From contig JAHQVX010000085.1 of assembly GCA_019634125.1 (NCBI GenBank), forward strand, positions 1 through 32,067: a stretch of DNA of 32,067 bases. Direction: 5' to 3'. The stretch is from Saprospiraceae bacterium (lineage in GTDB: Bacteria > Bacteroidota > Bacteroidia > Chitinophagales > JAHQVX01). Positions 151 to 4,031 of the stretch are shown here, in pieces; the stretch's first letter is position 1; each line of letters begins with the position of its first letter. The notes under the pieces were generated by a model. That model saw nothing but the letters and a program-made list of their open reading frames with translations. It was not told the origin of the DNA and did no database searches. A program made the translations under genes and the position numbers.

Positions 151-220
151 AATTAAATTATTTTTTATGCACTGCAAGTGCTCGTCTCCTTCAACGCGCA
201 CTGAAAGTGCGCGTGATTAA
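151..220 (+). repeat. REP element copy 1 (two-hairpin unit)
   Basis: Two hairpins lie in tandem. The first is GCACT-GCA-AGTGC at 169-181. The second is a perfect 9-bp stem, ACGCGCACT-GAA-AGTGCGCGT, at 194-214. The unit starts with an AT-rich ATTAA/T-run and ends with GATTAAG. The same unit recurs in the same orientation at 991-1056 and inverted at 349-397, around the RAYT gene. Paired hairpins next to a RAYT are the standard arrangement of REP/BIME elements mobilised by this transposase family. Confidence 0.85.
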
Positions 221-342
221 GAGGAGCATATGAAGTTACTTTTAGTTATCCAATTATTGGTGACGGGATAGGTTATTCAGAGGAAATAAAAAGCATATGC
301 AACTTCTTAATTGATTATAAGTTTTTGGTGGGAAAAGAATAA
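217..342 (+). pseudogene. Orphan C-terminal coding fragment between REP copies
   Basis: After the stop at 214-216 one frame stays open to a TAA at 340-342 and reads like ordinary protein (AYEVTFSYPIIGDG, then IKSICNFLIDYKFLVGKE). It has no usable start and begins inside the end of REP copy 1, so it looks like the 3' tail of a gene whose 5' part was lost. Another frame offers ATG at 231 after an AGGAG-like sequence, with a signal-peptide-like start, but it stops after 13 codons. That would fit a frameshifted remnant of one small secreted protein. The function is unknown and the coding claim is tentative. Confidence 0.35.
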
Positions 343-348
343 TTTATT

Positions 349-397
349 GCACGCACTTTCAGTGCGCTGCTTAATGAGTTATGCACTTGTAGTGCAT
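349..397 (-). repeat. REP element copy 2, inverted
   Basis: This is the reverse-orientation counterpart of copies 1 and 3. It has hairpin CGCACT-TTC-AGTGCG at 352-366, then CTTAAT-like spacer sequence, then a 7-bp hairpin ATGCACT-TGT-AGTGCAT at 381-397. It lies just downstream of the RAYT stop codon. With copy 3 upstream of RAYT it forms an inverted pair enclosing the transposase gene. The stems have diverged slightly in length and loop from the other two copies, while the stem sequences are kept. Confidence 0.82.
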
Positions 398-426
398 TGA
401 ATTCATCGAACAATTAGTACTATAAA

Positions 427-978
427 TTACAAAATCACCTCCACATCCAACAAGCCCTTTCCCCCTGCATAGTCTATTGCTGAAGAATACAAATAATGTT
501 CTGGCTCAGACACAAATCCAGCCTTGACAGGATTAGCATGGATGTAGGTAAGCTTTTGATCGATCCAGTTATTATCATGGTAAGCTAATTCAATAGGGTG
601 AAGGCCATCTTGCCAGACTTTGTACTTTTTACCTCGCTGAGTTCGTTGTGCTTCAAACGAAAATTTGTCTAACAACCAATCCCGTCGACTTTCCTTTACC
701 GATTTAACGGCATTTACTAGCTCTTTGGAAGTATGGGCTTTCAAATGTTGTAGTGTTTTATTCAACGGCTCGACTTCATTAGATAAAATAGCATGAAAAT
801 GATTGGTCATAATAACCCACGCATATACGTTCAATCCTTTTTTTTGTTGGGCATATCTAAAACTGTCGACTAAAATTTCTCGGTAAACTGTACGTGTAAA
901 TAAATCAATCCATCCCACTATAGTAGAAGTAACGAAATACATGTGTGCTTTGCTTCGAATTTTGTATTTTTCAGACAC
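427..978 (-). CDS. REP-associated tyrosine transposase (RAYT, Y1/IS200-like)
   Basis: The 183-residue protein has the Y1 transposase layout. An N-terminal MSEKYKIR...YFVTSTIV strand pair leads to the HUH motif in MTNHFHAI (H60, H62), then a helical region, then the catalytic tyrosine in LTYIHANPVKAGFV (Y145). The KAGFV...YLYSSAIDYAG tail is typical of RAYTs in this phylum. By family knowledge it nicks single-stranded DNA at REP hairpins through a 5'-phosphotyrosine link. The start codon is GTG at 976-978; there is no better start upstream, because TAA follows nine codons back, and the alternative ATG at codon 13 would cut the first strand. The gene is framed by REP copies 2 and 3 in inverted orientation and has no accessory gene. 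All catalytic residues are present, so it is probably functional. Confidence 0.93.
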   Translation of the reverse strand: MSEKYKIRSKAHMYFVTSTIVGWIDLFTRTVYREILVDSFRYAQQKKGLNVYAWVIMTNHFHAILSNEVEPLNKTLQHLKAHTSKELVNAVKSVKESRRDWLLDKFSFEAQRTQRGKKYKVWQDGLHPIELAYHDNNWIDQKLTYIHANPVKAGFVSEPEHYLYSSAIDYAGGKGLLDVEVIL

Positions 979-990
979 ATGCCAAATGTA

Positions 991-1056
991 ATTAATTTTT
1001 TATGCACTGCAAGTGCTTATCTCGTTCCACGCGCACTGAAAGTGCGCGCGATTAAG
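991..1056 (+). repeat. REP element copy 3
   Basis: It repeats copy 1 in direct orientation: a T-run, hairpin GCACT-GCA-AGTGC at 1004-1016, a pyrimidine-rich spacer, a perfect 8-bp hairpin CGCGCACT-GAA-AGTGCGCG at 1030-1048, and then GATTAAG. It lies directly upstream of the RAYT start codon, where it could act as transposase substrate, as a regulator of RAYT expression, or both. Confidence 0.85.
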
Positions 1057-1692: not shown

Positions 1693-2670
<978 letters not shown>

Positions 2671-2677
2671 TTAGTTT

Positions 2678-2717
2678 ACAGTTTTAAGTAGACAGTCTAC
2701 AGTTCTAAGTATACAGT
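2678..2717 (+). repeat. Left terminal repeat of the S23 cassette (two tandem 19-bp units)
   Basis: Two direct units with a 21-bp period, ACAGTTTTAAGTAGACAGT (2678-2696) and ACAGTTCTAAGTATACAGT (2699-2717), agree at 17 of 19 positions. The inner unit overlaps the stop codon of the S23 ORF by one base. The reverse complement of the inner unit recurs on the other side of the ORF with 18 of 19 matches. The repeat fills most of the gap between the S23 ORF and the hemB start. Confidence 0.85.
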
Positions 2718-3082
2718 TAGAAATTTGACGAGGATTTTATTTTTCTAATGAGAGCCGCCAGCATTTTTTTAATCTCTTCAGCTAGTTGTAGGCACTCTTG
2801 AATGGCATCTTGGTTAGCGTATCCTAATTCCTTTGATAAGAACAATAAGTAATGGGACTCATGAGCTGAGCCGGAAGCAATATATAGGAATCGAACAAAT
2901 TCTTTATTCGTTTCTCTACCTGCTCCTTCAGAAATATTTGTTGGAATAGATGTAGCTGCACGTCTTAATTGAGCGATTAGATTAAATTTTTCCGAGTCAG
3001 GAAAAGACTTAGTTAGTTGATATACTTGTAAGGCAAAATCATGCGATTTCTCCCAAACTTTATATTTTCTGTAATCAACCAT
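2717..3082 (-). CDS. Four-helix-bundle protein, S23/23S rRNA intervening-sequence family
   Basis: The 121-residue protein carries the hallmark sequence of the S23/IVP family: YRKYKVWEKSHDFALQVYQL at the start, RRAATSIPTNISEGAGR in the middle, and the FVRFLYIASGSAHE segment followed by a C-terminal helix. Members form pentamers of four-helix bundles; the family was first seen inside 23S rRNA intervening sequences and includes the Avd accessory protein of diversity-generating retroelements. No reverse transcriptase or variable repeat is present here. The ORF lies between hemF and hemB and is bounded exactly by inverted repeats: the 3' one touches its ATG, the other its stop. It has no visible Shine-Dalgarno. 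Its cellular role is unknown; a nucleic-acid-binding role is family inference. Confidence 0.93.
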   Translation of the reverse strand: MVDYRKYKVWEKSHDFALQVYQLTKSFPDSEKFNLIAQLRRAATSIPTNISEGAGRETNKEFVRFLYIASGSAHESHYLLFLSKELGYANQDAIQECLQLAEEIKKMLAALIRKIKSSSNF

Positions 3083-3107: not shown

Positions 3108-4031
3108 TTAACTCTTGAATTCTTTCTCAACTATCCATTCTTTCGGAGCAACTAATACGTTCATTAGCTTCTCTTCTTCGGGCCCGAAGGCTTTCAAATT
3201 GTAATCCCATCTTACTTGAGGGGGCAGGCTCATTAAAATACTTTCAATACGTCCATTGGTTTTTAGACCGAATAAGGTGCCTCTATCGTGAATGAGGTTA
3301 AATTCAACATATCGTCCTCGTCGAATTTCTTGCCAATACCGGTTTTGAGCGTTGAAGGGTAAATCTTTTCGCTTTTCTAAGATGGGCAAATAAGCTGGCA
3401 GAAAGGAATCTCCGACTTCGGTTACGAAATCGTACCATTGATCGTGTGAAAGGCCGTCATTTCCATCTTTAAGGTAATCGAAAAAGAGTCCGCCAATTCC
3501 TCGAGCTTCGTTTCTATGGCTATTATGGAAGTAGTCGTCGCACCACTTTTTGTAGTTGGTATAGAAGTCTGAATGGTGTTTGTCGCACGCATTTTTACAG
3601 ACTTGGTGCCAATGTTGGGCGTCTTCTTCGAAGAGGTAGTACGGGGTTAAGTCTAATCCGCCACCAAACCAAGCGTCGATTTTTTTGCCTTCGGCATTAT
3701 ACATCTCAAAGTAGCGCCAATTGGCATGACTGGTTGGGGCGAAAGGGTTTTTGGGATGGAGGACGAGTGAAATGCCACATGCAAAGAAGTTGGCTTCTTC
3801 TACGCCAAATTTTTGCTTCATGAGCTCGGGCAGTTGGCCGTGAACGATGGAGGTATTTACGCCGCCTTTCTCTAATACATTCCCGTTAGTAATGACGCGT
3901 GTTTTACCTCCGCCTCCACCTGGTCGTTCCCAGGCGTCTTCTACAAATTTGGCTTTGCCGTCGATGCGTTCCAGTTCCGCACAAATCGTATTTTGCAGCT
4001 CATGGATGTATGAGACAAAGCGCTCTTTCAT
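3108..4031 (-). CDS. hemF: Oxygen-dependent coproporphyrinogen III oxidase
   Basis: The 307-residue protein matches HemF throughout: a Gly-rich RPGGGGGKTRV segment near residue 40, the signature NWRYFEMYNA, the conserved block WFGGGLDLTPYYLFEEDAQHWH near 120-145, and RGRYVEFNLIHDRGTLFGL...MSLPPQVRW near the C-terminus. It oxidatively decarboxylates coproporphyrinogen III to protoporphyrinogen IX using O2, which implies an aerobic or microaerobic life. It starts 2 nt after the hemE stop, consistent with co-transcription. The extreme C-terminus (VEKEFKS) is the part next to the inserted repeats and its TAA lies in the repeat extension, so the last residues may have been altered by that insertion. 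Confidence 0.97.
   Translation of the reverse strand: MKERFVSYIHELQNTICAELERIDGKAKFVEDAWERPGGGGGKTRVITNGNVLEKGGVNTSIVHGQLPELMKQKFGVEEANFFACGISLVLHPKNPFAPTSHANWRYFEMYNAEGKKIDAWFGGGLDLTPYYLFEEDAQHWHQVCKNACDKHHSDFYTNYKKWCDDYFHNSHRNEARGIGGLFFDYLKDGNDGLSHDQWYDFVTEVGDSFLPAYLPILEKRKDLPFNAQNRYWQEIRRGRYVEFNLIHDRGTLFGLKTNGRIESILMSLPPQVRWDYNLKAFGPEEEKLMNVLVAPKEWIVEKEFKS

Follow-up and report, generated by a model that had tools for sequence, protein, structure and literature searches.

A RAYT gene between inverted double-hairpin REP ends in a Saprospiraceae bacterium: a probable IS-like unit with MITE-like derivatives

The window, i.e., the whole stretch of 32,067 nucleotides that was analysed (contig JAHQVX010000085.1 of the Saprospiraceae assembly GCA_019634125.1), contains near its left edge a gene for a predicted REP-associated tyrosine transposase (RAYT, or TnpA-REP) surrounded by three REP copies, and further on the other genes listed in Table 1. 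A gene for a 23S rRNA intervening-sequence protein sits between hemB and the coproporphyrinogen oxidase gene; no rRNA gene was found among its immediate neighbours.

Table 1. Features of the RAYT locus and of its neighbourhood (positions in the window)
Feature	Position	Strand	Description
REP copy 1	160-221	+	inner hairpin 169-181, outer hairpin 194-214; homology back to 150
REP copy 2	about 342-402	-	outer hairpin 349-370 (one-base bulge), inner hairpin 381-397; unit end 3' of RAYT
RAYT (TnpA-REP) gene	427-978	-	ORF, GTG start, 183 aa
REP copy 3	995-1056	+	inner hairpin 1004-1016, outer hairpin 1030-1048; unit end 5' of RAYT
Putative whole IS-like unit	344-1056	-	about 710 bp; inverted double-hairpin ends enclosing RAYT
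hemB	1693-2664		
23S rRNA intervening-sequence protein gene	2717-3082	-	four-helix-bundle protein
Coproporphyrinogen oxidase gene	3108-4031		

Counted from the GTG start, the HuH motif of the RAYT is H60-F-H62 and the catalytic tyrosine is Y145 within YIHANP, exactly the residues (H60, H62 and Y145) that the preliminary description had named as intact. W122Q and S165-S166 are also present, and an extra helix (99-113) separates the two core halves. Among 35 relatives H60 and Y145 do not vary, and H60, H62, W122, Y145, N149 and P150 are invariant in 47 Bacteroidota homologues. The protein scores 98.2 bits with the NCBIfam model NF047646 (REP_Tyr_transpos, cut-off 80) and falls just under the cut-off of Pfam Y1_Tnp (21.7 vs 23); no further domain, such as a C-terminal HTH or Bac_DnaA_C, was found in its 183 aa with Pfam and NCBIfam. 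The alignment-based AlphaFold2 model (pLDDT 92.9) has as its closest PDB fold the E. coli TnpA-REP with a REP hairpin (4ER8, E 7.6e-8), followed by the ISDra2 and IS608 transposases. On these grounds of sequence and predicted fold the protein is assigned to the RAYTs; by motif comparison with Table 1 of PMC6006769, not by a tree with the sequences of that study, it fits TnpAY1 subclass 2.6, which is RAYT group 5 of Bacteroidota. The genome encodes only one other Y1 transposase (G000, C125:11544-11951, L033), whose C-terminal YIRKQEEHH is characteristic of TnpAY1 subclass 1.2, a relative within class 1 that is reported to be without IS features.

Each REP copy comprises two hairpins that share the 5-bp stem core GCACT-NNN-AGTGC and differ in their 3-nt loops. 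All three copies match the covariance model (copy 1 at 162-221 with E 4e-27, copy 2 with E 6e-24, and copy 3 with E 8e-28), and their folding is unusually stable on either strand (z -3.4 to -4.0, with at most one of 200 shuffles equally stable). Copies 1 and 3 repeat each other in direct orientation (141-221 vs 976-1056, 84% identity over 81 nt); copy 2 lies in the opposite orientation to both, with 25-nt arms at 343-367 and 1031-1055 (88%). Alignment and folding thus bear out the arrangement proposed earlier, in which three two-hairpin REPs surround the RAYT, copies 1 and 3 being direct and copy 2 inverted, and they support the enclosure of the gene by the inverted pair of copies 2 and 3. None of the hairpins of these copies has GTAG at its foot; a single GTAG in copy 2 falls across the inner loop by chance.

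The genome (2.2 Mb in 146 contigs, 83% complete) was searched for further copies. The pattern GCACTNNNAGTGC occurs at 18 sites, six of them within the window locus, vs one site for the reversed control. The covariance model yielded seven strong REPs in the whole genome, a solo copy that is degenerate but clear (C81, E 1e-16), and a weak match (C109, E 1e-5); hairpin pattern matches on C7, C45, C57 and C79, which fitted the full REP model weakly or not at all, were set aside as chance occurrences. Five or six REPs lie outside the locus, four of them making two RAYT-less inverted pairs and one or two being solo. According to the preliminary description, a lack of further copies would have pointed to a non-proliferating, local repeat; such copies do exist, namely the two pairs plus the one or two solo REPs, yet they are few, not the hundreds expected of a proliferated family. 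The copy number is low, about nine in a genome with 17% missing, and a high-copy REP family was rejected, a canonical family usually having more than 100 copies per genome (PMC2817692). Chance palindromes were also rejected, given the direct and inverted homology, the pattern counts against the reversed control, the shuffles and the covariance model. Homologues of the unit's own end were not found in 399 relatives from the order beyond this genome, and the search for carriage by phages gave no match in phages and one very remote match in a viral contig. The weak C109 match (2900-2960, L029) is a very degenerate REP-like hairpin directly upstream of an apparent hemL start; the window unit adjoins hemB, and this is probably a coincidence.

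Both ends of the unit could be delimited against the two RAYT-less pairs, C108:16505-16683 and C137:7165-7455. Both contain the copy 3 end joined to the RAYT 5' end (88% over 113 nt each), and the copy 2 end is found in C108 (95%, 61 nt) and in C137 (81%, 196 nt, extending into the 3' part of RAYT). The DNA between the REP ends of these pairs is RAYT sequence, not an unrelated spacer: C108 retains the 5' end of the gene, and C137 its 5' part plus roughly 80 nt from the 3' side of the coding sequence, the middle being deleted and the remnants decayed, with stop codons. Both pairs are, from what they retain, internal-deletion derivatives of the unit made of copy 2, RAYT and copy 3, whose tips are TTATTGC... 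and ...GCGATTAAG and whose length agrees with that of the 650-750 bp units of relatives. Over 72 nt, copy 1 matches the equivalent ends of C137 and C108 at 89-90% identity; since it has only an end of the type found 5' of RAYT, as in copy 3, and the upstream region, it is a solo end. The likening of the locus to a BIME holds only in part: copies 2 and 3 are the ends of one RAYT-bearing unit, with copy 1 as a solo end beside it. The 5' breakpoint is common to C108 and C137 (GCTTTGCTTCG, about codon 11), and the simplest account of C108 would be a second deletion, between two words ending in AG, in a C137-like derivative; from this we infer that a derivative changed place. No target duplication was apparent by eye at the window, C108 and C137 units. 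An 80-aa ORF of C137 (L026, 963-1205, + strand) with an antitoxin-like C-terminus (...GEVVSHDDVKQKF) continues directly into the derivative's REP end, which provides the stop region of the ORF.

The profile scan of GTDB genomes gave at least 303 relatives, and all the 80 that were kept belong to Bacteroidota. When upstream flanks were compared with the reverse complements of downstream flanks, with mispaired flanks as controls, the inverted-repeat score exceeded the 99th percentile of the controls in 48 of 78 loci (median 49 vs control mean 20). The plan of the family is an inverted pair around the RAYT, with an outer hairpin of 8-11 bp stem and a loop that is often TGC or TTA, followed in about half of the arms by an inner hairpin; the outer hairpin is present in both arms of 43 loci, 16 of which have the inner one in both arms too. 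The window unit fits this plan of inverted hairpin ends. The tips are pyrimidine-rich, often with CT beside the outer hairpin, and too variable for a terminal cleavage motif to be called. Most RAYT copies within one genome are diverged, which counts against movement as a unit and agrees with the published averages of 1.8 copies and 40.7% identity (PMC6006769). A group-5-like RAYT amid many GCATTCCCACGCAGGAGCGTGGGAACGAG repeats was found in a gammaproteobacterium, Salinivibrio kushneri (CP114587; L188, 3500-4700), which suggests horizontal transfer and a different end hairpin.

Near-identical whole units at unrelated sites, by which an IS is recognized, were found in relatives; the genome studied here has deletion derivatives alone. 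G002 contains two 752-bp units with 99.87% identity; G024, three full units and a truncated one (92-97%; full units 92-94% over 660-685 bp); G053, two units on different contigs (689 bp, 92.8%); G019, two units (680 bp, 86%); and Mucilaginibacter flavidus (G419), two unit families, which align over about 700 bp with 96.9% and 91.7% identity. Similarity breaks off at the hairpin ends and the flanks are unrelated; of seven pairs, one alone (G024ab) has short flank matches, of 47-61 nt. On the right side the shared sequence runs a few bases past the outer hairpin (AGGAGGGAA, AGCGGGGGG and ACGGAGAA); this tail resembles the right cleavage tail of IS200/IS605, the left-right asymmetry coming from few pairs. 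No evident target duplication was seen at the multi-copy units of relatives. Some near-identical units are close neighbours, 4.8 kb apart in G002 and 1.1 kb apart in G419, and recombination-based duplication is possible there. The dN/dS between unit copies is 0.06-0.15, with one copy having gained stops in the G419cd and G024 comparisons, and the RAYT family is under purifying selection in relatives. The earlier suggestion that the module may be active is favored by this selection and by the intact gene; against it, the single RAYT of this genome is accompanied by derivatives that are 10-20% diverged, and the element may therefore now be inactive here.

Several sites vary between related species. 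Beside recA of Mucilaginibacter some species carry the unit and three lack it, and exactly one outer hairpin is left in the species without it (L214, L215 and L216 vs L207 and L218). The remaining hairpin is either a target REP that was there beforehand or what a central deletion left behind; because the "empty" sites keep one hairpin, insertion is here indistinguishable from deletion of the middle. In an intergenic locus of Pontibacter (L197, L200) the spacer ranges from 81 to 2632 bp over about 45 species, with RAYTs in three species and short spacers in about fifteen, so that presence and absence are clear, but polarity is not. RAYTs that could not be aligned with each other occur at this same place in two species, and the locus is a possible insertion hotspot. 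A plasmid of Bernardetia (CP147018) bears inverted REP pairs that lack a RAYT and are about 190 bp long. Clean empty sites on Bernardetia plasmids and in Salinivibrio kushneri were considered and rejected, the right flank alone being in common in both cases.

We consider the locus likely to be an IS-like REPtron that moves as a unit, probably on single-stranded DNA, and that has given MITE-like derivatives. The HuH/Tyr transposase would recognize the end hairpins on single-stranded DNA, e.g., the lagging strand, and Y145 would cleave beside the outer hairpins; the whole unit could then be excised and inserted without target duplication, in the fashion of IS200/IS605. Deletion of the gene between intact ends would yield RAYT-less inverted REP pairs (MITE- or REPIN-like) that could be served in trans, and loss of one end would yield solo REPs such as copy 1. 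Movement on single strands is suggested because of the analogy with IS608/ISDra2 and TnpA-REP, at whose sites single-strand cuts are made beside hairpins (PMC8266576). The anatomy, the deletion derivatives, the purifying selection and, in relatives, the multi-copy units with sharp ends and unrelated flanks were observed; the single-strand chemistry, mobilization in trans and any activity that the element now has here are inferences.

Other explanations are less probable. The RAYT could belong to a classical domesticated REPtron, in which it is fixed, vertically inherited and itself immobile, and spreads only REPs or REP pairs. The genome does have one RAYT copy, two Pontibacter species (L196/L199) share an orthologous RAYT in the same position, and RAYTs in general have been described as single-copy and "incapable of self-mobilization" (PMC3116915). 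We nevertheless find this unlikely, as pure REP dissemination does not produce RAYT fragments within RAYT-less pairs, and at least five relatives have near-identical whole units in unrelated places. If, instead, the units had been spread through homologous recombination or gene conversion, acting on REPs already in place at many sites, no transposase would be needed for the spread of RAYT, and the solo hairpin at the "empty" Mucilaginibacter site, as well as REP arrays or extra REP copies beside several units (e.g., L205, L208 and L173), would be explained. This is more doubtful still: the alignments reach as far as the outer hairpin tips and do not stop inside the repeats, the right tail past the hairpin (AGGAGGGAA, AGCGGGGGG) belongs to the copied unit, and repeats of 50-60 bp are short for efficient recombination. 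Finally, oriented two-hairpin modules with homology extending into RAYT coding sequence at three places, an inverted-end plan that is family-wide, and a T-tract architecture that is not consistent make it very improbable that the hairpins, strong, GC-rich and intergenic as they are, represent ordinary bidirectional terminators or local regulatory palindromes around a relic transposase.

The present evidence points to IS behavior, with MITE-like derivatives, in at least some of group 5. A wider proposal, which we make tentatively, is that group 5 RAYT units of Bacteroidota could be living self-mobilizing single-strand transposons, the missing intermediate between IS200/IS605 and the immobile RAYT/REPIN systems, derivatives of the C108/C137 type showing the birth of a REPIN. 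REPs are among the commonest bacterial repeats; on their origin, a proposal of 2011 derives REPINs from the termini of an IS200-like ancestral element, present RAYTs being said to "appear to be incapable of self-mobilization" (PMC3116915). A multi-copy, sharp-ended RAYT unit with derivatives that hold gene remnants is a concrete system for testing this origin. The analysis also provides a usable definition of group 5 ends, which in earlier work were "atypical" and found by eye (PMC6006769).

Subclass 2.6 is characterized by NH[LIV]H, WQ, YIH[QN]NP and SS motifs, a median length of 179 aa, a 21-aa insertion between alphaC and beta4, and occurrence in Bacteroidota (PMC6006769); the RAYT of the window has NHFH, VWQ, YIHANP and S165-S166, a length of 183 aa and the helix 99-113. 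The hairpins of the subclass were described as "atypical", without GTAG and present also elsewhere in the genome (Quentin et al., 2018, PMC6006769), and those of the window likewise lack GT[AG]G at the foot and have copies elsewhere in the genome. However, weaker structures and no mobility are reported in PMC6006769, whereas the ends here are strong inverted double hairpins, with whole-unit copies and deletion derivatives. The preliminary description had taken the stems without GTAG for a possible distinct REP class; the class is indeed distinct, but group 5 REPs were already known to lack GTAG, and in outline the class is known from PMC6006769. What is new in this genome is that RAYT-less REP pairs hold remnants of the RAYT gene.

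The canonical REPs of groups 2, 3 and 4 have GTAG or GTGG 5' of the hairpin, which is absent at all feet here. With the E. coli TnpA-REP and its REPtron (4ER8) the unit shares the HuH-Y1 fold, inverted REP pairs and a REP-framed RAYT; the E. coli system has the GTAG foot, hundreds of REPs and a single immobile RAYT, whereas the window unit has no GTAG, about nine REPs, and RAYT fragments within REP pairs. TIRtrons with their TIRYT genes (Di Nocera et al., 2013, PMC3733652) are similar in that a Y1 gene is framed by terminal inverted repeats, some of which are repeated elsewhere; TIRYTs fall mostly in subclass 2.1 and have an HTH at the C-terminus and a GGGGWSAS repeat, whereas the window unit is without such a domain, each of its ends is a hairpin pair, and its tips are TTATTG/GATTAAG. 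The likeness to IS200/IS605 (IS608, ISDra2) consists in the HuH-Y1 transposase, sub-terminal hairpins, multi-copy units and no target duplication seen; the differences are a class 2 transposase (Y---NP, here YIHANP, the class 1 Y---Q signature of IS200/IS605 TnpA being absent from the RAYT), inverted double-hairpin ends, and no tnpB. REPINs, lastly, are also RAYT-less inverted REP pairs of non-autonomous appearance, but they were described without RAYT remnants and their RAYT was said not to self-mobilize (PMC3116915); unlike them, C108 and C137 keep the ends of the RAYT, as classical MITEs do.
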